Part shown: piece by piece, positions 1,694-59,099 of the stretch
How positions within the stretch are numbered: position 1 is the stretch's first letter
How the letters are laid out: every line of letters starts with the position of its first letter
DNA from: Acidimicrobiia bacterium
GTDB lineage: Bacteria; Actinomycetota; Acidimicrobiia; Acidimicrobiales; Bin134
Direction: 5' to 3'
DNA length: 64,000 nucleotides
Assembly (NCBI GenBank): GCA_009843865.1
Contig: VYCQ01000012.1
Span: 1-64,000 of the forward strand
The notes under the pieces: generated by a model
Seen by the model: the letters and a program-made list of their open reading frames with translations, nothing else
The model's database searches: none
What the model was told of the DNA's origin: nothing
Position numbers and translations under genes: made by a program

Positions 1694-4294
1694 ATGCGTG
1701 CAGGCATCTTCGCGTTGACCCTCGCCCTTCTAGCTAGCGTTCTCGCCCTAGCGCCCGCAGCCTTAGCACAAGTCCGAAACAGCCCTCCTGAGGCTATTGC
1801 GGGTGACGATTATGCCCTCACCCCGGGGGTAGACACCACCGGCTATCTCAACGCCTCAGGCACCTTCGATGTTGAAGACAACCAAAGTAGCCTCACCTAC
1901 CGGTGGAGCATCCTCACCGAAGCGTACAACTGGCTTACAATAATCCGCACTGGCACCCCGTTGGGCCGCACTGCCGAGTTTCAAGTGCCCCCCTTGAGGC
2001 TTGTGAATCGAGCGAGCATCTACCACATCGACTTCGAGCTGACCGTTACCGATTCAGGTGGCTTGTCGGCAACCGACATCATACGGGTAACCCTCAATCA
2101 GCCTCCCGAAGCCACCATTACCATGTCGGCCAAACTTCCACACCCCAACCCCACCGACACCAACGGCAACGGCCGTATTGACGATGCAGAGCGCTACACG
2201 GTTGATGCCGTTATTGATGCCCCCTTTGAGGGTGACAACGATGCCAACGATTGGGATGTTCAAGAAGGTGCCCGCATCACTCTTACAGGCTCATCTAGCA
2301 CCTCAGGTCTCTCGGATGAGAGGCTTACCTACGCCTGGCAGCGCCGCGCCGCCCGCCCCAACCTGACGGGTTTCAACATCGATCCGGCCATCAGCACGCA
2401 ACCGACCATCACCATTGACCTGCCCGAGACCTTGCGCAACCAAGCCACCGCCTATGTGCAATACCGTCTTGTCGTCACCAACCAAAGCGGCGTTTCTGAC
2501 ACCGCCCTTATCAGCATCACTCTTCACGATCAGCCCGCGGCACCCACTGTGCAGATTGCTTTGCGCAATGCTAGCCAGCCTGCCCAAATCGCCTATAAAC
2601 CCAACCCTAACCAGATCAACCAGCCTGCCCGTTACGTGGTGGCCCCGGGCCAAACCGTGCAACTCATGGCCACAGCCGACGACAAAGACGGCACTCAAGC
2701 CCGCCACCTCGTCCACGCTTGGCAGGCCACAACCGAAGACGTTGCCATAACCCAACTCAACGCCACCCGCAGGGGCACCACCTCTTTGGCCACCTACACC
2801 GCCCCCTCACAACTGCCCGCTGGCCAAACCCACATCATCCAGGTTGCCACTGTTGGCGTTACCGACCTCACCGACCGCACCACCACCGTTCCCATCACCT
2901 TCATCGTTACCAACAACCAGGCTCCCGAAGCCGTGGCCCCAGCCGACCTCATCAGCGAAGACGGCGCTAGAGGCGGCATCGATGGCACCGGCATTGTCAC
3001 AATACCGGGCCTCGGTTTCGACTCCAACGACGACACCCTCACTTATTTGTGGCAACAGGTTGATGCCAACAACGTTCCTCTTGCAGACCCTCCTGTGGTT
3101 CTCATCAACCCCACCGAGCCCACCACCTCATTCCAAGCGCCCGAGCTACGCAGTGGCCGTCTTGCGATCAACCTGCTGTTCACCGTTACCGACTCTTGGG
3201 GCGTGTTCGACACTGATGTGGTGACCATTACTGTTTTTGGACACAACGACCCTCCTTCAGCTAACGCTGGCTCCAATCAAAAGGTTCAACCACGCTCCAC
3301 AGTGGTTTTAGATGCCACAGCCACAACCGACCCCGACCCTAACGAGCACCTCACCTACCTCTGGGCCTACACCGCCATCGCCGTCAATCCTCTTGCGGTC
3401 ATCAACCCCATTACCTCGCAAGACCAAAACGCTCTGCGAGCCTTTTGGCCCACTGGTGGTACCTCATATCCCGATGTGCTCACATCGCAGCGCACTGTGC
3501 GGCCCACCTTCCGTACACCCAACATCATCAATCTGCGCAGCGTGCGCCTTACCTTCACCCTCACAGTTACCGACACGGCAGGCAACACCAGCCAAGATGA
3601 GGTTCATGTAACTGTGGTGGGCCGCTTCTTTTCTGGGGTGATCGACGGCCCCGATTATTGCCACAATAGAAGTCTTGGTGGCCCCCGCACTTACGCCAGC
3701 GATGCCGATAAAGATGGCGTGGCCGAGGTTTGTTCTTTGCGAACCACCCGCCGCGAAGCAGCCGCACGCCAACAGGCGCTCAACACCGTGGCCAGCTTGA
3801 ACACCGCTGATTTCAACCGTGAGGTGCGTCAAGCTTGCCGAGTTATCGACGGCGAAGATTTCACCCAGCATGGCGATAAACCCGCAGACCTCGCCAAAGA
3901 TGTCTGCTCTACCGGCGTAGTAGCCCCACAACCGCAACCTCCCGACCTCACCGCCAACCCACAGTTCTTTTCAGGCCCGGTAATAGATGGCCCCAACTTC
4001 TGCTTCAACTTCAGCCTTGGGGGTGCTGTCACCTATCCGCACGATGGCAACGGTGACGGCATAGCCGAAACCTGCGCCCTGCCCTACACCCGCCGTGAAG
4101 CCATAGCACGCCAAACGGCTCTAGACACCTTCGCCTCACACCCGGCGTTCACCAACGCTCTTATTACGGCGTGCTTATCAGCAGTGGTTGCACAGGTCAC
4201 AGGCGACAAACCCGAAGATCTAGCCGAAGACGTGTGCGCCAACGCCAGGTCGCTTAATCCCAACCCCCAAACCGGCACCCCTCTTCCCTCATAG
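1694..4294 (+). CDS. Secreted PKD/cadherin-like repeat protein with two C-terminal DxDxDG (Excalibur-like) Cys-containing domains
   Basis: Signal peptide MRAGIFALTLALLASVLALAPAALAQ; repeated 'ANAG...LxYLW...LTVTDT' Ig-like motifs; C-terminal DADKDGVAEVC and DGNGDGIAETC. Confidence 0.8.
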   Translation: MRAGIFALTLALLASVLALAPAALAQVRNSPPEAIAGDDYALTPGVDTTGYLNASGTFDVEDNQSSLTYRWSILTEAYNWLTIIRTGTPLGRTAEFQVPPLRLVNRASIYHIDFELTVTDSGGLSATDIIRVTLNQPPEATITMSAKLPHPNPTDTNGNGRIDDAERYTVDAVIDAPFEGDNDANDWDVQEGARITLTGSSSTSGLSDERLTYAWQRRAARPNLTGFNIDPAISTQPTITIDLPETLRNQATAYVQYRLVVTNQSGVSDTALISITLHDQPAAPTVQIALRNASQPAQIAYKPNPNQINQPARYVVAPGQTVQLMATADDKDGTQARHLVHAWQATTEDVAITQLNATRRGTTSLATYTAPSQLPAGQTHIIQVATVGVTDLTDRTTTVPITFIVTNNQAPEAVAPADLISEDGARGGIDGTGIVTIPGLGFDSNDDTLTYLWQQVDANNVPLADPPVVLINPTEPTTSFQAPELRSGRLAINLLFTVTDSWGVFDTDVVTITVFGHNDPPSANAGSNQKVQPRSTVVLDATATTDPDPNEHLTYLWAYTAIAVNPLAVINPITSQDQNALRAFWPTGGTSYPDVLTSQRTVRPTFRTPNIINLRSVRLTFTLTVTDTAGNTSQDEVHVTVVGRFFSGVIDGPDYCHNRSLGGPRTYASDADKDGVAEVCSLRTTRREAAARQQALNTVASLNTADFNREVRQACRVIDGEDFTQHGDKPADLAKDVCSTGVVAPQPQPPDLTANPQFFSGPVIDGPNFCFNFSLGGAVTYPHDGNGDGIAETCALPYTRREAIARQTALDTFASHPAFTNALITACLSAVVAQVTGDKPEDLAEDVCANARSLNPNPQTGTPLPS

Positions 4295-4504: not shown

Positions 4505-5497
4505 ATGAGTTCCGCAGCGGCGCTTGCCTTTGATGATTGGACGGCTACACAACCTCACTTGTTAGCACAGGCGCGCTGGCACAGGGATGTGTCTTGGAGT
4601 GGTCACCCGCTGATCCCGCCTTGGGTTAATCTCAACGACGTGGGGTTGGATCGGTTTTTCACGAAGCTTGATGTGGCCGAGCAGTGTTGGGAGTGGATGC
4701 AGGACGAAATGCGCGCCGACCACGCTGACCCCGACGTATATTGGTACGTTGATCCGTCTGCGGGAGACGGGGTGTTTTACGATTTGCTACCCGAAGGCCG
4801 ACGTAGTGGTGTTGAAATCGTGCCAGACCGCGCCGAGTTCGATTGCACCGATTACCTCTCATGGTTGCCGCCCTCAAGCCAGCCTTCAAACCGAATCGCA
4901 GTGATAGGAAATCCGCCGTTCGGCTATCGGGCATGGCTGGCTTTGGCGTTCGTCAACCATTCGGCAGTGTTCGCCGACTATATCGGCATGATCCTTCCGA
5001 TGGCGTTTCAAAGCGATGGTAAAGGCAGCCCCAAATATCGGGTGCATGGCGCTCAACTGATTCGTCAGGAACATTTGCCCGTCGGTTCTTTTTGCGATGA
5101 TTATGGCCAGCCGGTGCAGGTGAACGCGTTGTGGCAGATATGGCGGCGAGGCGTGAACAACCGACCACCAAACAGCACTTGCGACCAGTGGGTTGATCTG
5201 TTCACTGTAGACATGCGAAAAGAGCGGCTGTGTGGTCAAGAGAAACTGGCCGTTGCCGACTGGTTCCTTCAGCGCACCTTCTACAGTGAGCCGCCGCAGC
5301 TCGTGCGTGATTTTTCAGAAGTCCGCTATGTTTGCGGCTATGGAATTATCATCAAACAAGATGCCGATGATGTGACTAGGTGCCTGTCAGATATCGACTG
5401 GTGTGATTACTCCAACCTTGCAGCTCACAATTGCCGACATATCTCTATGTATCACATCAGACAAGCCTTGATAGATAGCGGGTTTGTCGATGCTTGA
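4505..5497 (+). CDS. DNA adenine-type methyltransferase (R-M cassette A)
   Basis: DPSAGDGVFYDLLP (motif I-like) and GNPPFGYR (motif IV); overlaps next ORF. Confidence 0.75.
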   Translation: MSSAAALAFDDWTATQPHLLAQARWHRDVSWSGHPLIPPWVNLNDVGLDRFFTKLDVAEQCWEWMQDEMRADHADPDVYWYVDPSAGDGVFYDLLPEGRRSGVEIVPDRAEFDCTDYLSWLPPSSQPSNRIAVIGNPPFGYRAWLALAFVNHSAVFADYIGMILPMAFQSDGKGSPKYRVHGAQLIRQEHLPVGSFCDDYGQPVQVNALWQIWRRGVNNRPPNSTCDQWVDLFTVDMRKERLCGQEKLAVADWFLQRTFYSEPPQLVRDFSEVRYVCGYGIIIKQDADDVTRCLSDIDWCDYSNLAAHNCRHISMYHIRQALIDSGFVDA

Positions 5498-6005
5498 CCC
5501 GCACGACATTTTGCGGGACGTGCTGGCCGAGCACAGTGATCACGATAAGTGGGTTGGAACGCCATTTGAGCGTATCAAGCGAGTCTCCAACTCTACGGTT
5601 GGAGATGTCGGCCAGGCGTTTGTCGAGCGTCTGTGTGAAGAGTTGGGTTTCGATATTGAGGTTCCCCGTTCACCGGACGGCAAGCGGTTGCGTCAATCAC
5701 CTTGGGATATCAGTATCGAAGACGTGACGTTTGAGTTAAAAACAGCGACGGAAGATATCGGTGGTTCGTTTCAGTTTAATCATCTCCGTTACCACCGTGA
5801 GTACGATGCTGTGCTCTGTATCGGCATAGCTCCAGCTGATATCTACATGGGATCTTGGACGAAAGCAGATGTGGCAACAGGTGCCGCGGGCAAACTCATC
5901 TCTATGGAGAAGGGCGCTAATGCATCTTACAAGCTCATCAAGCGCCCAGATCAATTGCATCCTATTAGCGAATTCGCAGCTCGGGTGCTCAACGTTCTGG
6001 CGTAA
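5484..6005 (+). CDS. Putative type II restriction endonuclease partner of cassette A
   Basis: 173-aa ORF overlapping MTase end; D-x(n)-ExK-like 'WDISIEDVTFELKTATED' core. Confidence 0.6.
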   Translation: MSMLDPHDILRDVLAEHSDHDKWVGTPFERIKRVSNSTVGDVGQAFVERLCEELGFDIEVPRSPDGKRLRQSPWDISIEDVTFELKTATEDIGGSFQFNHLRYHREYDAVLCIGIAPADIYMGSWTKADVATGAAGKLISMEKGANASYKLIKRPDQLHPISEFAARVLNVLA

Positions 6006-6870: not shown

Positions 6871-7420
6871 ATGGCTGATAAGCAGATCTGCGTGATTGCT
6901 GGTCCTAACGGTGCGGGAAAGACCACGTTTGCGATGCGGTATCTGTCAAGCGAGATGCCCGGTCTGCACTTTGTTAATGCCGACCTAATTGCTGCTGGAT
7001 TGTCACCGCTTAATCGCGGCACAGGCGTGGAAGCCGCAGCGGGTCGGCTGATGCTGACCGAGATCAACCGTCTGGCTGCTCAGGGACAGAGTTTTGCTTT
7101 CGAGACCACTTTGGCGGGCCGCAGTTATTTGAGGCGCATTGATCGGTGGCGAAGTGATGGCTATCAAGTGGTGTTGTTGTATTTGAGCCTCGCCAACCCC
7201 GAGAATGCCGTGTCGCGGATAGCAGAGCGGGTGAGACAGGGAGGCCATTTGGTGCCTGAAGATGTGGTTCGAAGGCGGTTTGCTGCTGGATTACGGAATC
7301 TACATGAGCACTACATTGGTAGGGTTTGAGCACTACATTGGTAGGGTTGACGAGTGGAAAGTGTTCGACAACACTGGAACGGTACCGCTGCTTGTCGAAC
7401 AAGGCATGAACCGTGACTGA
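6871..7420 (+). pseudogene. Zeta-toxin family P-loop kinase truncated by a 22-bp tandem duplication
   Basis: GPNGAGKTTFA Walker A, zeta-like 'NADLIAAGLSP', 'FAFETTLAGRSYL'; TGAGCACTACATTGGTAGGGTT at 7305 and 7327 causes stop at 7329. Confidence 0.8.
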
Positions 7421-9581: not shown

Positions 9582-12500
9582 TTGTCCATGATTATGCTTC
9601 ACTCGGTTTGGTCCGACGGAGAGAGTTCTTATGCTCGTCGGAAAGTTATGACCATGTTGGCAGTGCTGGCGTTGTTAGCAAGCGTGCTTATCTGGGCCAC
9701 CCCCCAAGTGCAGGCGCAGTTTGGTAATGAGTTGCCTGATGCCGATGCTGGGGAAGACGATTTCGCTAATCCCGATGAGGAAGTCGAGCTTGAAGGTATA
9801 GGTCATGATCTGGAGGATGATGGGAACGACGATGTTACCCTTAAGTTCGATTGGGAGATCCTGACAGGCCCATATGATTGGGTTACAATCACACCCGATG
9901 AAGATGAATTAGGAAAAGCTAGTTTTACTGTACCTAATAAAAATTACATAGCTGGAATATCCGACAGTGATCCTCAAAAATATAAGATTAATATTCGCTT
10001 GACCGTTACTGATTCAGAGGGTGCCACAGATACAGATACTGTAGTTATCACAATCCGCCGTGCACCTGTTCCTAATATTGAAGTGTTTGCAGGTTTGTGG
10101 GATGACGATTTTGCAGACGATCCAGACGCAATTTTGGCAGAAGTCTTTGGTAGAGATGCAATTATAGATGGACCTGGTGAGAACGGCAATAGGGATGACG
10201 AATGGGATATCAAGGAAGGTGCTTATCTTAGGTTAGATGCCTCTGGTAGCACCGTGCCTGAGGGAGAGGTTGATCGTCAACGGTGGACATTGAGAGCACC
10301 GTCATCAACGCCATCAGGTATTACCACAGCAAATAGTGAACTAGATTCGCCACTAGGGGATAGCGAAACTGGTAGAGAAATCTTTATAGTTGGTGATACT
10401 GCTACTGATCCCGCTACTCATCCAAATGGTACAACTTATAAAGTTTTACCTAACATCGGAGCAGGACAGACCATAGCAAGTTCAACTCTGACTCTGATTT
10501 ATGATTTGACTGTACAATCTGGTACAGGGACACCGAGCCGAGATCGTGTGCGTATAGTGATACATGACGTACCGGACGACGGTGATGGTGCTGATATCCC
10601 TGTAGGCGTTGAACTCACAAACACCAGCAAGGGGGATGCTCCGCAAGAAATTGTAAGTGATGTTGAAAACCAGTACCTCGTTAATGCCGGATCAGTAGTG
10701 AAGTTCACGGCTACCGTGGATAGTGGTGATATTGCTGGTTTGCGTTGGCTTGGTGCTACTGCTGGAACCACTAATAACGTAGCTACTCGTAGGATCTCAG
10801 ATAGCGCTACTGCTGGAACAACCTACACCGTTACTGTGAGTCACGGCTCAGGTGCGGACGCGCGAACTGGTACCGTGAATTTGCTGGTTGGTAAAAACAC
10901 TCTCCCCACCATAGGTGAGGTGGCAAATCGCAGTGATGAAGATCTGCGTGACGTGGAATTAGCAAATGGTGCAGGCGTTCCAGGGTTGGACTTCTATGTA
11001 GTGAATGACGGTTCAGAAGGCATTACCTTGCGCGGAGTAGCCAATGATCCTGATGGTGGACCTGTTACTTATGCTTGGAGTTTGCATGAAGCCGAAGGCA
11101 TTACTGAGGCGGCCCATTTAGCTATAAAGGCTGCTGATTATGCTTTGGATAGTCCTACTGATTTGATTTCTGACAACGTACAGGTAGTTGAGGGAGCGCT
11201 GAGTGATCTTGAGGAATCAAGTTTGTCTATAACCTTGAACAATGCGTCTACCGACACGGTAACGTTCGACGTTCCTCAGGTAGAAGATGATACGTATGCA
11301 ATTCTTGTCTTCTCCGCGATTGATTCATCAAACACAGTAAACAAGCAGTACATCTATATCAGCATCATTGCTGTTGATGATCCTCCTGTTGCTAATGCAG
11401 GGCCAGATCAGCAAGTTGCATCGGGTTCGTTTGTTCGGCTGAATGGCTCTGGTAGTTCTGACCCAGACCCAGGCGATTCGCTTGGCTGGGAGGGTCCAGA
11501 TGGCACTCCTGGCAATGATGACGACGTACCTGCATATCAGTGGACCTACAAGGGTGCTAAAATGAACCCTCTTCCAGATAATCGCACTGCACTTACTGAT
11601 GCCGAGATTGAAGCGCTTGAAGGCTGGATTTTGAGACCAGTCACTGGCACAGAGACCGGAACCATTTCACACTCTAATGGCGATGATAAGTATGTGTTTA
11701 TCGTGGATGTTAATGGCCATTTGCGTGCAGGCGAAGATCAGCCAGAGAAGAAGTTCAAGAGTACAGACACAGCCTATCCGTACTTTGATGCTCCTCAGCT
11801 TGTTGGGTTTAATAACATACAGTTGACATTTGAATTAACGGTAAGTGGTTCGCAGGATAATGATGGCGACGGCACGTTTGAGTTGCAGTCCAACACCGAT
11901 ACGGTGGTCATCACTGTGGCTCAGGTTGGTGCCAACCAGTTCTACAGTGGCGTTATCACTGGGCCTGATTTCTGCACTAACCTAGCTCTAGGTGGGCCGC
12001 AACTTTATGCCCATGACAGTGATGGCGATGGTGTTGCCGATGTTTGTTCGCTAAACACAACTCGTCGTGCCACCATTGCTCGTCAAAATGCATTGGAAAC
12101 CATCGCTAGCTTGAACCCAACTGAGCTAACCAACCATATGACGGCAGAATGCGCGGCCCTAGGCGACACAAGCTATCCCGGCGATGATCCCAACGATTTG
12201 GCCGAAGATGTTTGTGAAACCAATGTTCCTGCATCTCTACCGGTGATTAGTACCAATGCAAGTTCTTATGGCTCTGTAGTCACTGGGCCTGAGTTCTGTG
12301 CTAACCGCAGTTTGGGTGGCCCCTTCACCTATCCTCACGACGCTGATCGCGATGGGGTGTATGAGGTGTGCTCGTTGAACTCGACAAGACGTGAGGCTGT
12401 GGTTCGTCAGGCAGCGTTGGCCCGTTTTGAGACAGTTGATCGTCAAGATCAAGATGAGTTGAACCGACTGTCGAAATTGGATCTTACGAGCTTGCCTAGC

Positions 12501-12728
12501 GACGATCCTGCCACCCGCATCGATGAATCTGATGCCGTCGAAGTAGCAGCAGAAATAGCTAGGCTTCAGGACCTGAAGTCTGATGCTGAAGCTCGCTACG
12601 CCAATGCGTTGGCTGCGGCTTGCCGTGCGCTAGAAGGTCAAGACTTTGGCGATAAGCCAGCCGATCTAGCTTCGGATGAATGCAGTCCCAAGGCTGCTGC
12701 TTCGGGTACTGCCCTTCCATCTAGCTAG
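9582..12728 (+). CDS. Large secreted PKD/cadherin-like protein with two C-terminal DxDxDG domains (paralogue of 1694-4294)
   Basis: Signal peptide, 'VANAGPDQQVASGSFVRLNGSGSSDPDPGD', C-terminal DSDGDGVADVC / DADRDGVYEVC. Confidence 0.8.
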   Translation: MSMIMLHSVWSDGESSYARRKVMTMLAVLALLASVLIWATPQVQAQFGNELPDADAGEDDFANPDEEVELEGIGHDLEDDGNDDVTLKFDWEILTGPYDWVTITPDEDELGKASFTVPNKNYIAGISDSDPQKYKINIRLTVTDSEGATDTDTVVITIRRAPVPNIEVFAGLWDDDFADDPDAILAEVFGRDAIIDGPGENGNRDDEWDIKEGAYLRLDASGSTVPEGEVDRQRWTLRAPSSTPSGITTANSELDSPLGDSETGREIFIVGDTATDPATHPNGTTYKVLPNIGAGQTIASSTLTLIYDLTVQSGTGTPSRDRVRIVIHDVPDDGDGADIPVGVELTNTSKGDAPQEIVSDVENQYLVNAGSVVKFTATVDSGDIAGLRWLGATAGTTNNVATRRISDSATAGTTYTVTVSHGSGADARTGTVNLLVGKNTLPTIGEVANRSDEDLRDVELANGAGVPGLDFYVVNDGSEGITLRGVANDPDGGPVTYAWSLHEAEGITEAAHLAIKAADYALDSPTDLISDNVQVVEGALSDLEESSLSITLNNASTDTVTFDVPQVEDDTYAILVFSAIDSSNTVNKQYIYISIIAVDDPPVANAGPDQQVASGSFVRLNGSGSSDPDPGDSLGWEGPDGTPGNDDDVPAYQWTYKGAKMNPLPDNRTALTDAEIEALEGWILRPVTGTETGTISHSNGDDKYVFIVDVNGHLRAGEDQPEKKFKSTDTAYPYFDAPQLVGFNNIQLTFELTVSGSQDNDGDGTFELQSNTDTVVITVAQVGANQFYSGVITGPDFCTNLALGGPQLYAHDSDGDGVADVCSLNTTRRATIARQNALETIASLNPTELTNHMTAECAALGDTSYPGDDPNDLAEDVCETNVPASLPVISTNASSYGSVVTGPEFCANRSLGGPFTYPHDADRDGVYEVCSLNSTRREAVVRQAALARFETVDRQDQDELNRLSKLDLTSLPSDDPATRIDESDAVEVAAEIARLQDLKSDAEARYANALAAACRALEGQDFGDKPADLASDECSPKAAASGTALPSS

Positions 12729-12740
12729 GGGTAACATTTA

Positions 12741-12792
12741 AAAAATAGTAAGGCCCCGGCCCTTGTAAAAGGGCCGGGGCCTTACTATTTTT
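12741..12792. terminator. Rho-independent terminator after PKD2, probably bidirectional
   Basis: Perfect 24-bp stem aaaaatagtaaggccccggccctt-gtaa-aagggccggggccttactattttt. Confidence 0.97.
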
Positions 12793-12828: not shown

Positions 12829-12879
12829 GTCATTCCCTCATGTTATTCTGATGGTGTAAATAAAGGCAGGTCAGAGATG
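12829..12879 (+). promoter_or_regulatory. Conserved MTase-cassette leader, copy B
   Basis: Gap-free alignment with copies A, C, D; ATG at 12877. Confidence 0.75.
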
Positions 12880-13842
12880 AACGGGGAAAGCAGCATGAGC
12901 TGTCCTGCACGGCTGGAGGCCGGTCAGATCGTCGCGGGAGACTCCCGTGAGTTGATGGAGCGGATCGATGCCGCCAGCGTCGATCTGAGCTTCTGGTCGC
13001 CCCCTTATTTCGTAGGCAAGTCCTACGAGGCCCATTTGGACTTCGATGGCTGGCAGTTATTGATAGCCGACGTGATTGCCGCTCATAGCCGCGTGATTAA
13101 GCCTGGTGGGTTCATGGTGGTCAACATTGCCGACATCCTCTGCTTCCGCGACGAGTCCATGCCCCGCTTTCAGGCTGACAACGTGGCTCGCAAAATCAGT
13201 CCCGTCACAAGGGCTGACGTGGAGGCTGCCATGGCGGCCAACCCCGGAGCGAACCGGCATCAGCTAGCCGCCATTCTTGGCTGTTCTGAGCAGACTGTGC
13301 AGCGTCGGATCGAGGGCAACAACGTTAGGGGCGGTAAGCACGAGATGCCGACACGGGTGAAGCTCACGGGGGGCCTGATGGAGCAGTGGGCGCTTGATGC
13401 TGGACTGTATTTATACGACCGCCGGGTGTGGCATAAAGACCCTTGCTGGGCCAACAGCCAATGGCACTCGAACAGCTACCGCTCTGTTGATGAGTTCGAG
13501 CACCTGCTGGTGTTCTGGCAGCCAGGCGTGGTTACCTACGACCGCAACCGGTTGGAGCGGATCGAGTGGTCGCAGTGGGGATCGAGGGGTGTGTGGGAGA
13601 TACCGTCGGTGCAGCGCAACGACCGCCACGAGGCCGAGTTCCCAGAAGAACTCGCCCGTCGAGTCATCCGCCTCTGGTCGCCCGTCGGCGGGCTGGTGCT
13701 GGACCCGTTCGCCGGATCGGGTACCACGACCGCCGTCGCCGCCCAAGCGTCCCGCCGATGGATGGGCATTGAGCTTGACACCCGAGTGGCCACGATGGCC
13801 CGCAACCGCACCTTCACTCAGCAATGCAGCCTGATCGCGTAG
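12877..13842 (+). CDS. Orphan DNA methyltransferase (SPPY type) with HTH-like insert
   Basis: SFWSPPYF (motif IV), LDPFAGSGTTTAVA (motif I); internal 'NRHQLAAILGCSEQTVQRRIEG' helix-turn-helix-like segment. Confidence 0.8.
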   Translation: MNGESSMSCPARLEAGQIVAGDSRELMERIDAASVDLSFWSPPYFVGKSYEAHLDFDGWQLLIADVIAAHSRVIKPGGFMVVNIADILCFRDESMPRFQADNVARKISPVTRADVEAAMAANPGANRHQLAAILGCSEQTVQRRIEGNNVRGGKHEMPTRVKLTGGLMEQWALDAGLYLYDRRVWHKDPCWANSQWHSNSYRSVDEFEHLLVFWQPGVVTYDRNRLERIEWSQWGSRGVWEIPSVQRNDRHEAEFPEELARRVIRLWSPVGGLVLDPFAGSGTTTAVAAQASRRWMGIELDTRVATMARNRTFTQQCSLIA

Positions 13843-13949: not shown

Positions 13950-14076
13950 GCACCCGTCACCGTCTAAGCGCGGCGTTTCCGGCGTGGCTCAAGCAGTCCC
14001 ATATTGTACGGTTATCTAAGCCTCCGTAGGAGGCGTTGAATCTAAACACGACACCTTGTGCTTCGCTGTTTCCGTC
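13950..14076 (-). pseudogene. 3' remnant of a copy of the 14623-14901 gene
   Basis: High identity with 14621-14745 (gtcaccgtctaag.gcggcgtt.tc...gcttcgctgtttccgtc). Confidence 0.85.
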
Positions 14077-14078
14077 AA

Positions 14079-14120
14079 TTTAATCTTGAATAATAAATTG
14101 ATAATTTAAAATACTAGAAA
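14079..14120 (+). repeat. Upstream repeat module, copy 1 (possible promoter)
   Basis: aatttaatcttgaataataaattgataatttaaaatactagaaa, shared with ~15009 and ~15596. Confidence 0.75.
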
Positions 14121-14144
14121 TCGGGCAAGGTGATGGAGGAAGTG

Positions 14145-14393
14145 ATGAGTGAGCCGACATCGTATGAATTGGATTACGCGAATGGTGAGAATACAGCGGT
14201 GACCGCTAATGCAGTTCTCACTTTCCGAAACGGGACATATGTAGATTTGGTATTCGCTGATGTAGTTCACGAACTGCAAGAAGATGGCAATGTCAAGGCC
14301 AAGGGAACGCTGCTTAAACGGATCAGGCTTAGCGAAGATATAGCCCAAGAACTCTCCGATAAACTGCGGAACCGAATGAAAATGGGGGTTTAG
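14145..14393 (+). CDS. Small soluble protein (paralogue of 15256-15534 product)
   Basis: ggagg SD before MSEPTSYELDYANG; 'VDLVFADV' matches 'IEVLFADV'. Confidence 0.55.
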   Translation: MSEPTSYELDYANGENTAVTANAVLTFRNGTYVDLVFADVVHELQEDGNVKAKGTLLKRIRLSEDIAQELSDKLRNRMKMGV

Positions 14394-14626
14394 CCGCCTC
14401 CGCTGGCTTGGCTGATTGCCATGATAACGCTAACGATCAAAGCACCAACTCCAATGAACAGCCCAAGCACTGCAACTCCTATTGAGGCCATTGAGTGGCG
14501 GGCAGTGATTGTTGCTTCAAGCGTTGTGAGGCGCTTTTCTAAAATCACGGGGTCATGGTGTCCCCCGTACTCAAATACCGCAGTAGTTGAGGCAGGAGGA
14601 TTGCTGAGTTGTTTTGAAACCGTCAC
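14390..14626 (-). CDS. Small coiled-coil + C-terminal TM protein
   Basis: LEKRLTTLEATITARHSMASIGVAVLGLFIGVGALIVSVIMAI; GTG start overlaps upstream stop (GTGA). Confidence 0.55.
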   Translation of the reverse strand: MTVSKQLSNPPASTTAVFEYGGHHDPVILEKRLTTLEATITARHSMASIGVAVLGLFIGVGALIVSVIMAISQASGGG

Positions 14627-14901
14627 CGTCTAAGAGCGGCGTTTTCGGCGTGGCTTAACCAGTCCCATATTGCCCGGTTATCGAAGCCTCCGTAGGAAGC
14701 GTTTAATCTAAACACGACACCTTGCGCTTCGCTGTTTCCGTCTAACCCGATTTTCGTGGCTACGCTTTGAGCGATTGTGTCATCTCGAATCAAAAATGCG
14801 TTATCGGCTAATGAGTAGCGGTCGGGTTCAGGGTAATGCTCGTAGATCAATTTGTGTGTTTCTTCAAGATTGTGGGAAATGTGGACCATAAACACTGTCA
14901 T
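14623..14901 (-). CDS. 92-aa protein of unknown function, coupled to TM gene
   Basis: SD aaggag before MTVFMVHISHNLEETHK...IWDWLSHAENAALRR; 3' end duplicated at 13950-14076. Confidence 0.65.
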   Translation of the reverse strand: MTVFMVHISHNLEETHKLIYEHYPEPDRYSLADNAFLIRDDTIAQSVATKIGLDGNSEAQGVVFRLNASYGGFDNRAIWDWLSHAENAALRR

Positions 14902-15006
14902 TATTCTGCTCCTTACTCTGTTTTCTTTTAGCTTACCGATTTGTTGGTGTGCAGTTGGACTGTAGCGGTCAGACTGCTCTGTGTCTATACCATATTTTGC
15001 ATTCAT

Positions 15007-15055
15007 AAATTTAATCTTGAATAACAAATTGATAATTTGAAATACTAGAAAGACG
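15007..15055 (+). repeat. Upstream repeat module, copy 2
   Basis: aaatttaatcttgaataacaaattgataatttgaaatactagaaagacg. Confidence 0.8.
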
Positions 15056-15259
15056 ATGGAAAGCAGTGGTGATATCGTAAGCTTTGTGATTGCTTTGGCT
15101 ACGGCAATTCCTGCATTAATCACGGGGATCGTCGGTATCGTTAAAGCGAACCATGCTAAGGAAATGATTACCGTGCTCCAGCAAACCAATACTCAGGCAG
15201 TAAATGTTAACCAGCAGATCACGCCTGACACGCAGCAACTGCGAAACGAGGAGTCATGA
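15056..15259 (+). CDS. Small single-TM protein
   Basis: MESSGDIVSFVIALATAIPALITGIVGIV; ATGA overlap with next ORF. Confidence 0.6.
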   Translation: MESSGDIVSFVIALATAIPALITGIVGIVKANHAKEMITVLQQTNTQAVNVNQQITPDTQQLRNEES

Positions 15260-15534
15260 GCGACAAATCATCAACTGCTTATACGCTTCATGGTCAAGAT
15301 GGTGCTTTTGATCCTAAGCCTGCAAACAAGGTATTTGTCACCAAAAGAAAATACGACATTGAAGTGTTGTTTGCTGATGTGGATTTCTCGGCAGAGCCAC
15401 CATATGAAGGAACTGTGGGTCAGTCGGCCAGCATCAACTATGAAGTGGCCGAGCAACTCTGCGAGCAACTCCAAGAGGTGATCTCAAAGCGGCGTGACGA
15501 ACTAGCCGCCACGCTGCAATCTTCTACTGCCTGA
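15256..15534 (+). CDS. Small soluble protein coupled to TM gene
   Basis: 4-nt overlap; resembles 14145-14393 product. Confidence 0.6.
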   Translation: MSDKSSTAYTLHGQDGAFDPKPANKVFVTKRKYDIEVLFADVDFSAEPPYEGTVGQSASINYEVAEQLCEQLQEVISKRRDELAATLQSSTA

Positions 15535-15595
15535 GCAATTGCCTAAAGCAGCCAGACTGCTTTGTGTCTATACCCTATTTTTCGTTCATCAATTC

Positions 15596-15639
15596 CAGTC
15601 TTGAATAACAAATTGATAATTTGAAATACTAGAAAGACG
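15596..15639 (+). repeat. Upstream repeat module, copy 3
   Basis: cagtcttgaataacaaattgataatttgaaatactagaaagacg; homology with copy 2 extends from ~14971/15553 into the genes. Confidence 0.8.
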
Positions 15640-15942
15640 ATGGAAAGCAGTAGCGATATCGTGAGTTTGGTGATTGTGTTGGCTGCTGAGCACGGTGGCG
15701 TGTCGTCTGGAGAAGTGTGGACTGCCGTTATCAGCGTCGGTGGTATCGTCTTAGCGGGCATCGCCTTTCTTTCAATAATGGCGTGGCGGCTGGGAAACCG
15801 CTATGCCGATAGAACCGATGGGCGGCTCGACCGCCAGTCGAAGCGACAAGACCGCTTGGAAGGCAGGTTTGACGCGAGACTCGGTGACCTCACGTTGGGA
15901 GATGCCTCCGGCCCCGGCAAACTAGAGCCACGAGACCAATGA
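15640..15942 (+). CDS. Small TM protein (N-terminus homologous to 15056 gene)
   Basis: MESSSDIVSLVIVLAA...AVISVGGIVLAGIAFLSIMAW; ATGA overlap with next ORF. Confidence 0.6.
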   Translation: MESSSDIVSLVIVLAAEHGGVSSGEVWTAVISVGGIVLAGIAFLSIMAWRLGNRYADRTDGRLDRQSKRQDRLEGRFDARLGDLTLGDASGPGKLEPRDQ

Positions 15943-16121
15943 TGAACATCAAGACAGAAGAAGCCGTTTTGCAAAAGACGCGGGAGACGCTAGAGGCGAT
16001 CTACGATCAGTCCGGTGTGCTGGCAGCCACCAAGCTCGCTGTCGCTATGGCAATTGATTATTTGGATCAAGGCAATGTGGAGAAGGCCGTAGAGATCATC
16101 AACGAACTACTGAGGGATTGA
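15939..16121 (+). CDS. Small helical soluble protein coupled to TM gene
   Basis: 60-aa ORF with 4-nt overlap. Confidence 0.5.
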   Translation: MMNIKTEEAVLQKTRETLEAIYDQSGVLAATKLAVAMAIDYLDQGNVEKAVEIINELLRD

Positions 16122-16176
16122 ACACGCCCAAGTCGTTTCGAAGGCGGCATGATGCATGACGTTTCGATCTTAAGCT

Positions 16177-17562
16177 TTAGATGCGGGTAGAGATGTTGGC
16201 GAAGCGGGTTTGGTTGGTTACGAAGCTCAGCTTTGTTTTACCGGTAGGCCCGTTGCGGTGCTTGGCCACGATTACCTCAGCCACCCCTTTTTCGGTGGTT
16301 TCTGGGTTATGCACCTCGTCTCGATACAAGAACATTACGATGTCGGCATCTTGTTCTATCGAGCCCGACTCTCGCAGGTCGGCCAGCATGGGCCGTTTGT
16401 CTTGACGCTGTTCTAGGTTGCGAGAAAGCTGCGATAGCGCCAAAACAGGACAATTGAGTTCGCGGGCCAAGGTTTTGAGACCTCGGCTGATCTCGGCCAC
16501 CTCAACCTGACGATTTTCAGCAGCGCTACGCCCTGTCATTAGTTGCAGATAATCCACCACAACCATGCCCAAGCTGCCCACCTGGCTGCGCAGACGTCGG
16601 GCTTTGCCCCTGATCTCCATCATGGTGACCGCAGCGTTGTCATCAATCCAAATGGGCGCTCCAGATAGCTTGGTGATGGCGTTGGTGATGCCAGTCCAAT
16701 CTTGGTCTGTCAGGTTGCCTTTGCGAATCCGTGTGCCATCTACCCGCGCCTCTGAACAAAGCATCCGCTGGCTGATCTCAATTTGGCTCATCTCTAGTGA
16801 AAAGATCAGCACAGGTTTGTTGGCTCTCATGGCGGCATGGGTTGCCATGCTTAACGCAAAGCTGGTTTTACCCACCGCAGGTCGGGCCCCTACCACTACT
16901 AAGGTGCTGGGCTGAAGGCCACCTGTCATGTCATCTAGATCTATAAAGCCGGTAGGCAGGCCAGTAATCGCATCTTTTTTCTCATAGAGCTGCTCGATGC
17001 GGTCTAGGTTTTGTGGTAACAGCTCGGTGATGCTAGCTGTGGTGTTGACCATACGGTTGGCTGCAAGCTGGTAGACCATTGACTCGGCTGTGTCTACCGT
17101 TTTTATAACATCTTCGGTGCCTTCATAACCCAACTCGGTTATTTCGCCGCCCACCTCGATGAGCTTACGCAGCATTGCCGCCTCGTAAACGATGTTGACG
17201 TATTTGGCAGCATTAGCTGCTGCTGGGGTGCCGGTTTGCAGTTCTACCAGAGCAACGTTGCCGCCAGTTTTTTCTGAGAGGTCGCGCCGGTTCAGCTCTG
17301 CCGATACTGTTATCGCATCTGCGGGTTCGCCCTTTGCATATAGCGAGCAGATGGCCTCGTAAATCAGCCCATGAGAAGGGTGGTAGAAGTGTTCGTCCTT
17401 CAGCAGGTTGACCGCTTCGGCGATGGCATCACGGCTTAACAGCATGGCTCCCAAGATGGCTCTTTCGGCATCAAGGTTGTGCGGAGGCACCTTGTGGGTA
17501 GACCTGCTTGACCCTGCGGCGGGTGGGCGGCCATTGCTTATGGCAAATGTATCGCTCATCAT
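16177..17562 (-). CDS. dnaB: Replicative DNA helicase DnaB
   Basis: RPAVGKTSFAL, DYLQLM, NTTGxG... DnaB core; adjacent to rplI. Confidence 0.97.
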   Translation of the reverse strand: MMSDTFAISNGRPPAAGSSRSTHKVPPHNLDAERAILGAMLLSRDAIAEAVNLLKDEHFYHPSHGLIYEAICSLYAKGEPADAITVSAELNRRDLSEKTGGNVALVELQTGTPAAANAAKYVNIVYEAAMLRKLIEVGGEITELGYEGTEDVIKTVDTAESMVYQLAANRMVNTTASITELLPQNLDRIEQLYEKKDAITGLPTGFIDLDDMTGGLQPSTLVVVGARPAVGKTSFALSMATHAAMRANKPVLIFSLEMSQIEISQRMLCSEARVDGTRIRKGNLTDQDWTGITNAITKLSGAPIWIDDNAAVTMMEIRGKARRLRSQVGSLGMVVVDYLQLMTGRSAAENRQVEVAEISRGLKTLARELNCPVLALSQLSRNLEQRQDKRPMLADLRESGSIEQDADIVMFLYRDEVHNPETTEKGVAEVIVAKHRNGPTGKTKLSFVTNQTRFANISTRI

Positions 17563-25342: not shown

Positions 25343-26260
25343 ATGAAGCGAGAGATCATATTGCCAGAGATCGACACCCCAACAGGGCCGATCGCGCAAG
25401 AGCTGTTTCCTGAGCGAATCAGACACACTGCGGGTGTGGAGCGTGTCGGCCTCGGCGGGTTTGATATTTACTGTGGCGATGCGGTCGCAGTGTTAGCGGG
25501 GTTGTCTGAATGTTCGGCGCAGCTTGTGTTCACTTCGCCGCCTTACGCAGACCGCCGTCGGAATACTTATGGTGGTATCCATCCTGACGAGTATGTGAAG
25601 TGGTTTATGCCTTATGTGGATGCCATCCGACGCGTGCTGCGAGATGACGGCACATTTGTGCTTAATATTAAAGAAAGCGTTGTTCAGGGCGAGCGGCACA
25701 CTTATGTATTGGAATTGATTCAAGCCATGCGTGCTGCGGGGTGGTTGTGGACTGAAGAGTTTGTGTGGCATAAGAAGAATTGCTACCCGGGCAAGTGGCC
25801 TAATCGGTTTCGCGATTCGTGGGAGCGGCTGTTGCAGTTCAACAAGCAACGCCATTTTGTGATGCATCAAGACGCAGTGATGGTGCCTGTCGGAGAGTGG
25901 GCGCATAAGCGGCTTGCAGCGTTGAGCGACACTGACCGCACACGCGACGAGTCAGCTACCGGTAACGGGTTCGGCAAGCGTGTGGAGAACTGGGTTGGAC
26001 GAGACATGGTGTATCCGACCAACGTTGTGCATCTCGCTACCGAGTGTTCCAACCGTGGTCATAGCGCAGCATTTCCTGCGGAGTTGCCTGATTGGTTTAT
26101 TCGCTTGTTCACGGCACCGGGCGATCTAGTGATCGATCCCTTCGTGGGTTCGGGCACCACGGTTGCTGTTGCTCGACAGCTGGGCCGTGCAAGCATCGGT
26201 ATCGACATCAATCCTGATTTTTGCGAAGCATCTAGAGAGCGAGCCTCGTGTGTCGTTTGA
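25343..26260 (+). CDS. DNA methyltransferase (SPPY type, cassette C)
   Basis: FTSPPYADRR; VIDPFVGSGTTVAVARQLGR. Confidence 0.85.
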   Translation: MKREIILPEIDTPTGPIAQELFPERIRHTAGVERVGLGGFDIYCGDAVAVLAGLSECSAQLVFTSPPYADRRRNTYGGIHPDEYVKWFMPYVDAIRRVLRDDGTFVLNIKESVVQGERHTYVLELIQAMRAAGWLWTEEFVWHKKNCYPGKWPNRFRDSWERLLQFNKQRHFVMHQDAVMVPVGEWAHKRLAALSDTDRTRDESATGNGFGKRVENWVGRDMVYPTNVVHLATECSNRGHSAAFPAELPDWFIRLFTAPGDLVIDPFVGSGTTVAVARQLGRASIGIDINPDFCEASRERASCVV

Positions 26261-27640: not shown

Positions 27641-27799
27641 GATGTAGAAATCAAAAAGCAGGTCGGGTGGATTACCGACATGGCCGTGGTTGACAAGTTG
27701 ACGGTAGCTGAAGCGAAAGACAGGGTCATCAACAAGGTGGCGGCTAGGGTAATTAAATCGATCGATGCTGTTATCTTGCAAAGGTTCGTGGCTGAATGA
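27638..27799 (+). CDS. 53-aa small ORF coupled to m5C MTase
   Basis: MDVEIKKQVGWITDMAVVDKLTVAEAKDRVINKVAARVIKSIDAVILQRFVAE*; ATGA overlap with MTase; not in the supplied ORF track. Confidence 0.65.
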   Translation: MDVEIKKQVGWITDMAVVDKLTVAEAKDRVINKVAARVIKSIDAVILQRFVAE

Positions 27800-28698
27800 G
27801 CCTTGTCGCTGTCGATTTATTCAGCGGGTGCGGTGGCTTGTCCACAGGATTGGACAAAGCCGGTATCAATGTGGTCGAGGCATATGATTGCTGGCCTCAG
27901 GCGCTCGACGTATACCGTCGCAATGTCGGAGATCATGCTGTTGAGCTTGATTTGTCCGACACCGATACCGCGGTTAAGTGGATTGCCGAGACCAGAGCCG
28001 ATCTGGTGGTTGGCTCTCCGCCATGTCAAGACTTCTCCACCGCAGGCAAAAGAGTTGAGGCTGAGCAGGCCAACCTTACTACCGCGTTCGCGCAGATCGT
28101 TTGCGAATATCGTCCCATGGGATTTTTGATGGAGAACGTACCACAGGTTCGCAACAGCTTTACCTATGGGCGAATGCGCCGCGATATGGCCGGAGCTGGC
28201 TATTCGTTGGTTGAAATGGTGCTTGATGCGAGCCGGTTTGGGGTGCCGCAGCTGCGGCGGCGGTTTTTTGCTTTTGGTCACCTCGGCAACGGTGCTATCT
28301 GCAACCGGTTTGTCAACGGCATCGAAGCTCGTCAGACCCGGGAGCGCTTGACCGTCAAGGAGTATCTGAGCGACGAGATAGACATCGAGTTTTACTATCG
28401 GCATCCTCGAAATTACAGCCGACGATCGGTGTTTAGCGTGCATGAACCGTCACCCACGGTGCGAGGAGTGAACCGGCCTGTTCCACCGCACTACACAGGT
28501 AACCATCTTGATAGCGTTTCGCCCAACGAAGTGCGCCCTTTGACGACATATGAGCGTGGTCGGGTGCAGACTTTCCCGCCTGCGTGGGAGTGGTGCGGCG
28601 GCGATCGAAACGCTGACGCGGAACTTTTGATTGGCAACGCTGTGCCGGTGCAGTTAGCAGCCCATGTTGGCGCAGCGATCTGTGATGCCATCGACTGA
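27796..28698 (+). CDS. DNA (cytosine-5-)-methyltransferase (cassette D)
   Basis: DLFSGCGGLSTGL, GSPPCQDFS, MENV. Confidence 0.95.
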   Translation: MSLVAVDLFSGCGGLSTGLDKAGINVVEAYDCWPQALDVYRRNVGDHAVELDLSDTDTAVKWIAETRADLVVGSPPCQDFSTAGKRVEAEQANLTTAFAQIVCEYRPMGFLMENVPQVRNSFTYGRMRRDMAGAGYSLVEMVLDASRFGVPQLRRRFFAFGHLGNGAICNRFVNGIEARQTRERLTVKEYLSDEIDIEFYYRHPRNYSRRSVFSVHEPSPTVRGVNRPVPPHYTGNHLDSVSPNEVRPLTTYERGRVQTFPPAWEWCGGDRNADAELLIGNAVPVQLAAHVGAAICDAID

Positions 28699-29758
28699 TA
28701 GCCCGTCGCTGTACGGCATCACCGAGGAGAACTCCACCCGCTATGGCGCGTCGCTGTGGGGCAAAAACCAGTTCAACTCAACATTTCCACTTGCGCTATG
28801 CCTCTACATGCGTGATCACGGGCTGGCTCCCGTGGCTGTTATTGAACAAGACGGCATCATCACTACTGACAATGGCCTATGGCAGATGGGCGATGTGATC
28901 GGCGAGTCTGATAGCCGATATCTGTTTGAGACGGCTTTCAGCCCGTATGCGGCCTGCGTGCGTGGCGTAGTTGACAAGATCGACTTAGTGGTCTCATTAG
29001 GAGGTGAGCCTCTGCATCCGTTGGAAGTCAAGCTTACGGTCGTACCTGATATTGCCACCGCTTCCGTTGCTGAGGATCTCTGGTCGCCGGAGATGGTGAT
29101 GCGGCCCGTTAGCTCGGCCTATGCGATGATGAGTGTCGCCGCGAACCTCACCGACGGACTGACTCGCCAATCTGTCATGACTAGTCTGCGAACTGGTTAC
29201 AACCGTATAAGCGATTGGGGCAATACTGTTGAAATAATTCAGAATGCCGAATACTTGCGTTCTGCTCTCGACAAAGCCCTACAGATGGTTGCAGCCAGCC
29301 GATTGCAACGCCCGTTTTTACTGCAACCCCTATGGCGTACTGTCGGCCAGTCATTCGAGCTGGCCGACAATTGCTTCGATGTGTTCGTATGGTCAGATGT
29401 CGCTGTGATGCGGTTGTCGGTAGATCAGTCTGACGATGCCACCACTGTATCACGGTCTATGCGGGAGGTCGCCCGCCATGTCAGAGCGCTCTATGAGGTC
29501 TTGAGTCAGGGCGATTACAACTACGAGGGCATCTATAAGGGGATGGCACTGGATAATCAGACTGATAAAGCGTATGCGTTAAGCGGACGCAAGAGTATCC
29601 GCTATCTCGCTCATCCTTATTTGCGGCAACCACGGTTACCGCGCAGCATCTTATCCAGTCTTATTCTTGAGGGTGGTGAACGCGAACTGAAGCCTGAACG
29701 TAGATTTGATGCCGCAGTCGTTGCTTACATGATCCAACAGGCAGGATCACACTCATAG
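28685..29758 (+). CDS. HindVP-like type II restriction endonuclease
   Basis: LWGKNQFNSTFPLALCLYM; 'LHPLEVKLTVVPD' catalytic ExK-like; overlaps m5C MTase. Confidence 0.7.
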   Translation: MPSTDSPSLYGITEENSTRYGASLWGKNQFNSTFPLALCLYMRDHGLAPVAVIEQDGIITTDNGLWQMGDVIGESDSRYLFETAFSPYAACVRGVVDKIDLVVSLGGEPLHPLEVKLTVVPDIATASVAEDLWSPEMVMRPVSSAYAMMSVAANLTDGLTRQSVMTSLRTGYNRISDWGNTVEIIQNAEYLRSALDKALQMVAASRLQRPFLLQPLWRTVGQSFELADNCFDVFVWSDVAVMRLSVDQSDDATTVSRSMREVARHVRALYEVLSQGDYNYEGIYKGMALDNQTDKAYALSGRKSIRYLAHPYLRQPRLPRSILSSLILEGGERELKPERRFDAAVVAYMIQQAGSHS

Positions 29759-35128: not shown

Positions 35129-35419
35129 ATGAGTACTTCAGAGTGGACAGTTCCTGCGACTCAGTTTCGCGATAAGTGTTTGAAACTGCTTGACGTTGTA
35201 ATGGCTACTGGCGACACGTTGGTTGTTACCAAGCATGGTCGGCCGGTGGCAGCTGTTGTTCCGTTTGTCGAACGGCCCCGAGAGAGCGTAATTGGATGGG
35301 CTGATGATATGGTGCTTGAATCAGATCTGACCCGGTCGGCCATACCTTCTGAACATTGGCATGTGGTCGCTGATCCGGACCAGATTTTGGCTGAAGTCAT
35401 AGCCGATGAACAAGGTTGA
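35129..35419 (+). CDS. Phd/YefM-type antitoxin
   Basis: FRDKCLKLLDVVMATGDTLVVTKHGRPVAAVVPF. Confidence 0.9.
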   Translation: MSTSEWTVPATQFRDKCLKLLDVVMATGDTLVVTKHGRPVAAVVPFVERPRESVIGWADDMVLESDLTRSAIPSEHWHVVADPDQILAEVIADEQG

Positions 35420-35844
35420 GTGTGGATATTATCTTGGATACTGATGCCTTGCTGTGGATGTCTCAAGGCAGTGTACGGTTGGGCAAGAAAGCTCAGGTCA
35501 CAATCGAGAAAGCAATTCAAGGCGGCAAGGTGCGGTTTTCGCCAATTTCCATGCTAGAGGTTGCTCGGCTTCATTGGGACGGGCGGATTGATCTTCGGAG
35601 AGTGCCCGAAGTCTGGTATCGTGAACTTTTGGATAGGGGGGTTCGAGAGGTGCCAGTGACTACTGATATCGCTATTCTGGCTGCCTCGCTAGAACCACAA
35701 GAAGGCTTTCATGCTGATCCCGCTGATCAGATGATCGTTGCGTCGGCAATCGTGACTGGGCTTAAATTGGTCACTTCTGACCGGAAGATTCTTGGTTGGG
35801 CATCGCAGCGGACAGGCATTGCCTGCCTTGATGCTCGAAAATAG
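35416..35844 (+). CDS. PIN-domain (VapC-like) toxin
   Basis: DIILDTDALLWM...GFHADPADQMIVASAIVTGLKLVTSDRKI; 4-nt overlap with antitoxin. Confidence 0.9.
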   Translation: MSVDIILDTDALLWMSQGSVRLGKKAQVTIEKAIQGGKVRFSPISMLEVARLHWDGRIDLRRVPEVWYRELLDRGVREVPVTTDIAILAASLEPQEGFHADPADQMIVASAIVTGLKLVTSDRKILGWASQRTGIACLDARK

Positions 35845-50618: not shown

Positions 50619-50876
50619 ATGGCACAATTAGTTACAAGGATGGATGATGAATTGCTAGTTCAAATTGATGAATTGGTAGAATGCGGCGAGGTTGAGTCTC
50701 GTTCGCAAGCAGTACGTAGTGCTTTGGAGAAAATGCTTGATGAGCGGCGTGGGAAACTTGTGGCTGAAGCTACTATCGAAGCGTATTGCCGCATACCGCA
50801 GACTGAGGACGAACTGCGCTGGGCAGATGCAGGGGCCAGAGAGATGATAGCGGAAGAGCCCTGGGAGCGCTGGTGA
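50619..50876 (+). CDS. RHH (CopG-like) antitoxin
   Basis: MDDELLVQIDELVECGEVESRSQAVRSAL. Confidence 0.88.
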   Translation: MAQLVTRMDDELLVQIDELVECGEVESRSQAVRSALEKMLDERRGKLVAEATIEAYCRIPQTEDELRWADAGAREMIAEEPWERW

Positions 50877-51181
50877 TTGTGTCGCAATATGAAATTTGGT
50901 GGGCCGAGAACGAAGCCAAAGCGCGGCCGGTTTTAGTGGTCAGCAGAAATGAGGCCATTCCAGTACTTGACGCGATTATGGTTGCTCCGATAACCCGGAC
51001 CATTCGAGGAATCTCTACTGAAGTTGCATTGGATATCGAAGATGGGCTGCCGCAGCCTTGTGTAGCCAACTTTGACAATTTGCAGCTGATGCGTAAGTCT
51101 TACCTCGTTGAGCGCATAGGCGCAATCTCCCATCGTCGATATGAGATCTGTATCGCCCTTAATGCTGTTGCTAATTGCTGA
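50873..51181 (+). CDS. MazF/PemK-like toxin
   Basis: YEIWWAENEAKARPVLVVSRNEAIPVLDAIMVAPITRTIRGIPTEV-type; 4-nt overlap. Confidence 0.88.
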   Translation: MIVSQYEIWWAENEAKARPVLVVSRNEAIPVLDAIMVAPITRTIRGISTEVALDIEDGLPQPCVANFDNLQLMRKSYLVERIGAISHRRYEICIALNAVANC

Positions 51182-58385: not shown

Positions 58386-59099
58386 TCAAATCTCTCTGAA
58401 CAATTCAATGCAAGCGTTCAAGTCATCACGCCAAACGGCGAAGTCATACCAACCGCACCCGACGCAGCCTGACGGGTCATCCTTGTCGGCTGGTGCCCAA
58501 GTCCTGTTCCCCTCATAGAAGAACGCTATCCCGAATGGTGTGCCGCGCTGGCCTGTGTCGAAGCAGGTTTCACAAGACCGGCTCTTCAGCAGGTTGTGGC
58601 TTACGCTTCCGTTGGACGACTTCAACATCTGGAACTTGGCTCGTATGTCTTCGTCAGTCATCTCCGAGTAGTTGGTCTGGCCAACGCGTGTGTGCTCGTT
58701 CCAGCGGATCATGGGCAGCTTGTGGTCAATGGTCAACTGGCTCGGCGGGCGGCTGGTCATCTCCACAATGTCACGAAGTTCTAGCACTTGCTGGACCCGT
58801 TTGGCGAAGCCGCGCGGCAGCGACGTGGAAGGGATCGCCGGTTTCACTTCGCCCGTCCATCGGTCGTGGCGCGTGGTCTTGTCGCAATCCGAACACAGCC
58901 GGTCCTCGCTGAGTATCACCATGCCATCGCGCGACTGTGTACCGCGCTGCAATCCCTGTATCCCCGACCCTCCTGCTATCTGCGACGTTTGGACGTGGGC
59001 ATACTCGCACTCGCGGCAGTGCCATTCTTGATCGGAAAGCACAAGGTAAACCAAGTACACCTTGGAGTCCGGTTGGAACGCCCCCTCCAAGTCGCTCAC
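58386..59099 (-). CDS. HNH-like type II restriction endonuclease (zinc-cysteine rich)
   Basis: CxxC pairs, LTIDHKLPMIRW...HNLLKSRSCETC; ATGA overlap with MTase. Confidence 0.65.
   Translation of the reverse strand: MSDLEGAFQPDSKVYLVYLVLSDQEWHCRECEYAHVQTSQIAGGSGIQGLQRGTQSRDGMVILSEDRLCSDCDKTTRHDRWTGEVKPAIPSTSLPRGFAKRVQQVLELRDIVEMTSRPPSQLTIDHKLPMIRWNEHTRVGQTNYSEMTDEDIRAKFQMLKSSNGSVSHNLLKSRSCETCFDTGQRGTPFGIAFFYEGNRTWAPADKDDPSGCVGCGWYDFAVWRDDLNACIELFREI

Follow-up and report, generated by a model that had tools for sequence, protein, structure and literature searches.

An array of overlapping membrane/soluble gene pairs with a shared regulatory head, possibly of toxin–antidote type, beside dnaB in an acidimicrobial genome

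Seven small genes (A–G) at 13950-16121, flanked by a type II methyltransferase and dnaB, include three translationally coupled pairs, each joining a single-transmembrane (TM) protein to a soluble one, and carry a private promoter-like element that occurs only at such modules. The pairs are co-conserved and patchily distributed, and their TM and soluble components most likely form toxin–antidote style modules, a known kind of system, built from protein families absent from current databases. We give an even chance to a more specific reading, in which the seven genes would be a small array of accessory modules, each a two-gene toxin–antitoxin (TA) or abortive-infection-like unit of an undescribed family, with the TM protein as effector and the soluble protein as its neutraliser. 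The swapping of the regulatory head between modules is the most unusual and the best-documented part of the system; the private element confined to these modules and the fusion of the head to F/G are newly reported here.

The window, by which we mean the whole 64,000-nucleotide stretch analysed, is contig 7 of a 1.79-Mb genome that is 98% complete. It was compared with a genus sample of 22 genomes and with wider samples of 397 genomes from the order and 397 from the phylum. Judging from the bin names (CAR3, RHO3), the host bacteria are probably sponge-associated.

Gene pairs and duplicated parts of the cluster

The genes of the cluster and its borders are as follows.

12877-13842, plus strand: type II DNA methyltransferase bordering the cluster on the left, outside the modules (PADLOC PDLC03260, E 3e-123; Pfam N6_N4_Mtase, E 8e-36)
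13960-14079, minus strand: C remnant, the last 40 codons of a second C copy, its 5' half gone, abutting the A promoter block (tblastn, 85% identity to C residues 53-92, 40 aa)
14145-14393, plus strand: gene A, 82-aa soluble, E-like protein, standing alone with its D partner missing; 79% identical homologue in G021:C48
14390-14626, minus strand: gene B, 78 aa, second gene of C/B; coiled-coil-like region followed by a C-terminal TM helix (KD19 2.76 at 53-71); its GTG start overlaps the C stop by 4 nt
14623-14901, minus strand: gene C, 92-aa soluble protein, first gene of C/B; predicted ferredoxin-like fold, LN..G......W.WL motif (AlphaFold2 model, pLDDT 75)
15056-15259, plus strand: gene D, 67 aa, first gene of D/E; N-terminal TM helix (KD19 2.43 at 11-29) and polar, Q/N-rich tail
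15256-15534, plus strand: gene E, 92-aa soluble protein, second gene of D/E; predicted beta strands and long C-terminal helix (model pLDDT 69)
15640-15942, plus strand: gene F, 100 aa, first gene of F/G; D-derived N terminus and F body with TM 29-47 and a charged, coiled-coil-like tail (KD19 2.39)
15939-16121, plus strand: gene G, 60-aa soluble, probably helical protein, second gene of F/G; homologues follow F homologues in G006:C120 and G021:C6
16177-17562, minus strand: dnaB at the right edge, present in 22/22 genus genomes, its downstream side variable

The first-pass annotation had claimed three 4-nt overlaps, and all are present: C/B on the minus strand (GTGA), and D/E and F/G on the plus strand (ATGA), each overlap being exactly 4 nt. 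When such pairs were counted with both ORFs at least 60 aa long, 400 dinucleotide shuffles of the 2.2-kb region gave a mean of 0.13 and a maximum of 2, compared with the 3 observed. Hydropathy bears out the proposed division of each pair into one single-TM and one soluble protein, with one TM segment each in B, D and F (KD19 2.4-2.8); A, C, E and G reach KD19 values of 0.4-1.2 and have no such segment. The GC content of the 14-16 kb segment is 0.47, against 0.54-0.57 in the adjoining segments.

The cluster had also been described as a duplicating array. This is correct in part: the duplicated parts are a 5' regulatory head and part of C, but the array does not consist of three parallel copies of one pair, and D, E/A, C, B, F and G are different families. 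The C duplication is visible as a 123-nt DNA repeat (D1; 13954-14076 and 14620-14742, 92% identical) that carries the 3' part of the gene, and duplication followed by deletion best explains the truncated left copy. The paralogy claimed for A and E is weak by sequence (about 24% identity), and their kinship is supported by a D homologue that precedes the A homologue in G021:C48.

The regulatory head is present in three copies.

14077-14120, plus strand: head copy 1, promoter/RBS block before A (repeat family D2), with the element AAATTGATAATTTAAAATACT at 14095-14115
14964-15051, plus strand: head copy 2, before D, comprising an upstream repeat (14964-15011) and a promoter/RBS block (15008-15051) (repeats D2, D3 and D4), with the element at 15026-15046
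15547-15684, plus strand: head copy 3, comprising an upstream repeat, a promoter/RBS block (15592-15635) and the first 15 F codons, matching the D head, with the element at 15610-15630

A 44-nt promoter/RBS-like block thus stands before A, D and F, and an 86-nt repeat (15015-15100 and 15599-15684, 92% identical) reaches into the coding sequences of D and F as far as codon 15. The first 22-24 residues of F have no counterpart in its homologues in G006 and G021, whereas the D homologues carry that N terminus; F in this genome therefore has the appearance of an F body to which the D head was fused. Since the D head has been joined to the unrelated F/G pair and also placed before the lone A, the repeats indicate that the array grew by duplication and swapping of modules under one regulatory head.

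The promoter-like element AAATNRRTAATTTNRRAYACT is found at five sites in the 22 genomes, each just upstream of a module: three in the window (before A, D and F), one before D in G006 and one before D in G021. The pattern was aligned from the D upstream regions of three genomes and allowed at most one mismatch; because those same sites defined it, what the search adds is that the 22 genomes contain no further one. Its reversed control gave 0 matches in the 22 genomes. The element is a module-specific, putative operator, located upstream of D, A and F only. Sigma-70 and terminator scans of the sequence did no better than shuffles, and hairpins upstream of the F and D heads were not significant (z -1.2 and -1.0).

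Relatives, distribution and genomic surroundings

Tblastn and profile searches identified nine homologous pairs in five other genomes, each again consisting of a TM and a soluble protein.

C/B: G004:C31, G021:C6, G021:C4, L030 (JAJEIM01 contig) and G119
D/E: G006:C153
D followed by an A homologue: G021:C48
F/G: G006:C120 and G021:C6

The ORFs are therefore conserved in relatives, a point on which the first-pass annotation had made its proposal depend. The spacing of the partners varies, with a 4-nt overlap in the C/B pairs of G021:C4 and G119, an 8-nt overlap in G006 D/E, G021 D/A and L030 C/B, a gap of 1-4 nt in G004 C/B and in the F/G pairs of two genomes (taking the later start), and a 127-nt overlap in the C/B pair of G021:C6. 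D homologues are 67-68% identical in G006, where a 66% identical E homologue directly follows, and 54-56% identical in G021. C homologues occur in G004, in G021 (two), on the JAJEIM01 contig and in G119, and every one of them has a B-like gene after it; those of one named collection come from metagenome-assembled genomes. Pairwise dN/dS, limited to E, A and G because the other pairs had a saturated dS or yielded no comparison, was about 0.07 for E, 0.10 for A (dN 0.16, dS 1.54) and 0.04 for G (G006 versus G021). These sequence comparisons confirm the seven ORFs as real genes, under purifying selection where dS is measurable.

Each family is rare. C is found in 4 of the 397 order genomes, three of them in this genus, and in 1 of the 397 genomes of the phylum sample, which is the query genome itself; E/A and G are each found in 2/397 order genomes, with G006 added by other searches. 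Such rarity is that of mobile accessory modules, and the modules are apparently mobile. IS1595-type transposases flank the G021 D/A, G006 F/G and L030 C/B loci.

In two relatives an in-frame TAG interrupts the TM partner, namely D of G006 (L022:8078-8290) and B of G021:C6 (L024:15312-15458), and homology continues past the stop. In the window, TAG serves as the stop codon of gene A and of the methyltransferase; TAG reassignment was therefore set aside, and a nonsense mutation or assembly error is the likelier cause.

The assertion that the proteins match no known family holds in HMM library searches of all genes and several homologues. No module protein has a match above cut-off in Pfam, PHROG, PADLOC or NCBIfam, where only sub-threshold matches appeared, and none matches a toxin, antitoxin or defence family in these libraries. 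In Pfam, neither C nor B (E up to 1) nor any of six C homologues (E up to 5) matches a family. Assignment to a prophage, which had been named as a competing outcome, found no phage or prophage relative behind it: IMG/VR viral contigs hold no relative of C, E/A or G, plasmid searches gave none of C, E or G, and 50,697 phage records contain neither a relative of C or E nor a DNA match to the cluster. A prophage origin was rejected on these empty searches.

Within the genus, the downstream side of dnaB forms a variable site. Where the flank is long enough (loci L045-L065), its contents differ among congeners: large PKD/Fn3-type secreted-type proteins and TM plus coiled-coil proteins both occur there, two congeners (L056, L058) have a PemK/MazF-like gene whose partner is ribbon-helix-helix-like, and one (L062) has an arm-type integrase. 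The counterpart of this site in the window is 16121-16177. Elsewhere, a TM plus coiled-coil gene with repeated residues (FDEARADSDKKFADM) separates scpA and scpB in G006:C153 (L022:4697-7175), where a second such gene lies just beyond scpA, and the C/B pair of G021:C4 (L026) adjoins an scpA-like ORF; scpAB may therefore be another insertion site.

Large secreted-type PKD-domain proteins are encoded in the window at 1694-4294 and 9582-12728, are present in 22/22 genus genomes, mostly in several copies, and share a repeated C-terminal domain (FYSGVITGPDFC...DSDGDGVADVCSL..TRR.AIARQ). At 12741-12792, just after the second of these large genes, lies a perfect, terminator-like 24-nt inverted repeat with a 4-nt loop. 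The window also contains three type II restriction-modification (R-M) pairs (4505-6005, 27796-29758 and 58386-60085) and a further methyltransferase (25343-26260), as well as a Zeta-toxin/AAA_33-like kinase (6871-7329), a Phd/PIN-type overlapping pair (35129-35844) and a PemK/MazF-like gene (50873-51181).

Candidate functions of the pairs

In the TA or abortive-infection reading, the short single-TM proteins B, D and F would be toxic effectors that depolarise or permeabilise the cytoplasmic membrane. The coupled soluble proteins C, E/A and G would neutralise, and probably also regulate, their respective TM partners. D/E and A have the private promoter/operator-like element in common; it travels with the module, and in this genome F/G has captured it as well. 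The benefit to the host would presumably be one of defence or stability.

This reading is partly supported, in that it fits the anatomy, the patchy distribution, the private promoter and the neighbours. As is general for TA modules, two small, translationally coupled genes are conserved together, in the nine pairs as well as in the window, and, again as in such modules, their distribution is patchy (2-4 of 397 order genomes per family, with IS1595 neighbours). The PemK/MazF-like pairs and the arm-type integrase at the dnaB site of congeners point the same way. Where a single partner is damaged or lost, it was the TM gene in 3/3 cases (G006 D, G021:C6 B and the missing D before A), as expected if a toxin is shed and its antidote kept, with n=3 and two of the cases being single TAG codons in metagenome assemblies; the C remnant, in which the soluble gene decayed, is a counter-example. 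Defence-type neighbours also agree with the reading: an R-M pair, a zeta-like kinase and a methyltransferase in the window, a type IV restriction enzyme match near F/G in G006, an OLD-like ATPase match beside C/B in G021:C4 and an AAA_14-DUF4143 match 94 nt upstream of C/B in G004. They are weak evidence, because an enrichment in R-M and TA genes is general among sponge symbionts (PMC5649159) and the window alone contains several.

The closest functional analogy for C/B is with GhoS/GhoT. To go by the title of Cheng et al. 2014, GhoT is reportedly a small membrane-damaging toxin. Its antitoxin GhoS, of E. coli type V, is a small soluble protein structurally related to Cas2 (PMC7438911, PMC9782134). 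In C/B, likewise, a predicted ferredoxin-like soluble protein comes first and a small TM protein second, and the AlphaFold2 model of C (pLDDT 75) has its elements in the order of the Cas2-like ferredoxin fold. In layout and predicted fold the pair recalls GhoS/GhoT, and it plausibly works in the same way: C, made first, would restrain B by binding either the protein or its mRNA. We do not claim membership, however; neither C nor B has any Pfam match, and hence none to the GhoS or GhoT/OrtT families.

The first-pass annotation had also noted a faint likeness of C to SinR/Cas2-like small proteins. Cas2 is indeed among the best fold matches in the PDB, together with a PII-like protein (E 0.09) and BPSL1038, but none of these Foldseek matches is significant (E about 0.2 for Cas2 and BPSL1038) and no catalytic residue is conserved. 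BPSL1038 is a Cas2/VapD-like small nuclease with a D-X20-SST motif (PMC10491678). C is similar to it in length and in predicted secondary-structure order, but this motif is absent from the C alignment, whose invariant residues (F4, L37, G52, V63, L66, N67, G72, W79, W81 and L82) include no Asp; with no Pfam match and no conserved catalytic Asp, C does not have the marks of a Cas2/VapD-like nuclease. In the two-gene PanA/PanT type II system a small TM toxin depolarises the membrane and a soluble protein is the antidote, and the PanT of Helicobacter combines a coiled-coil-like N terminus with a C-terminal TM segment (PMC8832971). B has the same layout, but the Panacea domain that marks PanA is absent from C, E, A and G, which have no Pfam match above cut-off.

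The coiled coil and C-terminal TM segment of B are also shared with XhlA haemolysins and phage holins. Another conceivable origin of the pairs is from prophages, whose lysis or holin/XhlA-like genes would have been left behind and decayed. The G004 B homologue does match XhlA (E 0.0017), but at 18.9 bits against a Pfam cut-off of 34.7, and the match of D to a holin in PHROGs is similarly weak (E 0.0016). The partner proteins searched have no relatives among the viral contigs or phage records, no phage structural or endolysin genes were seen nearby, and the soluble partners are conserved under purifying selection and unlike lysis proteins, so that we consider a lysis origin very unlikely. Four of nine loci, counting the one in the window, have large secreted PKD/Fn3-type proteins nearby, a context that suggests another direction: the pairs could serve a surface-protein system as accessories, the membrane proteins as scaffolds and the soluble ones as adaptors, and help to secrete, anchor or sense the large proteins, perhaps for life with a host. 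Large proteins with a common C-terminal domain lie a few kb from the modules in the window, G006:C153, G021:C6 and G021:C4, F/G is directly downstream of one in G021:C6, and at the same dnaB site congeners have TM plus coiled-coil proteins. The large proteins, however, are found throughout the genus, from most of whose genomes the modules are absent; tblastn detected none in the stretches around G004:C31, G021:C48 and G006:C120, and common insertion sites alone may account for the co-location. We regard this explanation as unlikely, though clearly less so than a lysis origin.

Many small membrane/soluble pairs are regulatory. The pairs could accordingly be non-toxic regulatory or signalling devices in which a small soluble protein, of PII-like or nucleic-acid-binding type, is brought to the membrane by its anchor in order to tune a process, as hinted at by the best Foldseek matches in the PDB, a PII-like protein in the case of C and PC4 (E 0.18) in that of E. 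None of these matches is significant, and the extreme patchiness, IS association and module shuffling would be unusual for housekeeping regulators. A signalling role seems to us about as doubtful as one in a surface-protein system.

The TA or abortive-infection reading remains the one we favour. A bolder form of it, which we put forward only tentatively as a rather improbable proposal, is a modular head-swap system: a private promoter/start-codon head, native to D, would be passed between unrelated membrane/soluble pairs, so that new membrane effector–antidote pairs are recruited under a shared regulator at a variable chromosomal site. Recombination would in this way have assembled an arsenal of several undescribed, jointly controlled families of membrane TA modules.

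Should the TM proteins be toxins, the cluster would represent three or more undescribed families of TA modules that act on membranes and that their shortness and rarity have kept out of Pfam, PADLOC and NCBIfam. TA arrays would then be able to grow by duplicating a promoter and start-codon head and fusing it to a new pair. The C/B pair would, in the same case, allow one to ask independently whether the pairing of a Cas2-like soluble protein with a membrane toxin, as in GhoS/GhoT, is a recurrent arrangement.
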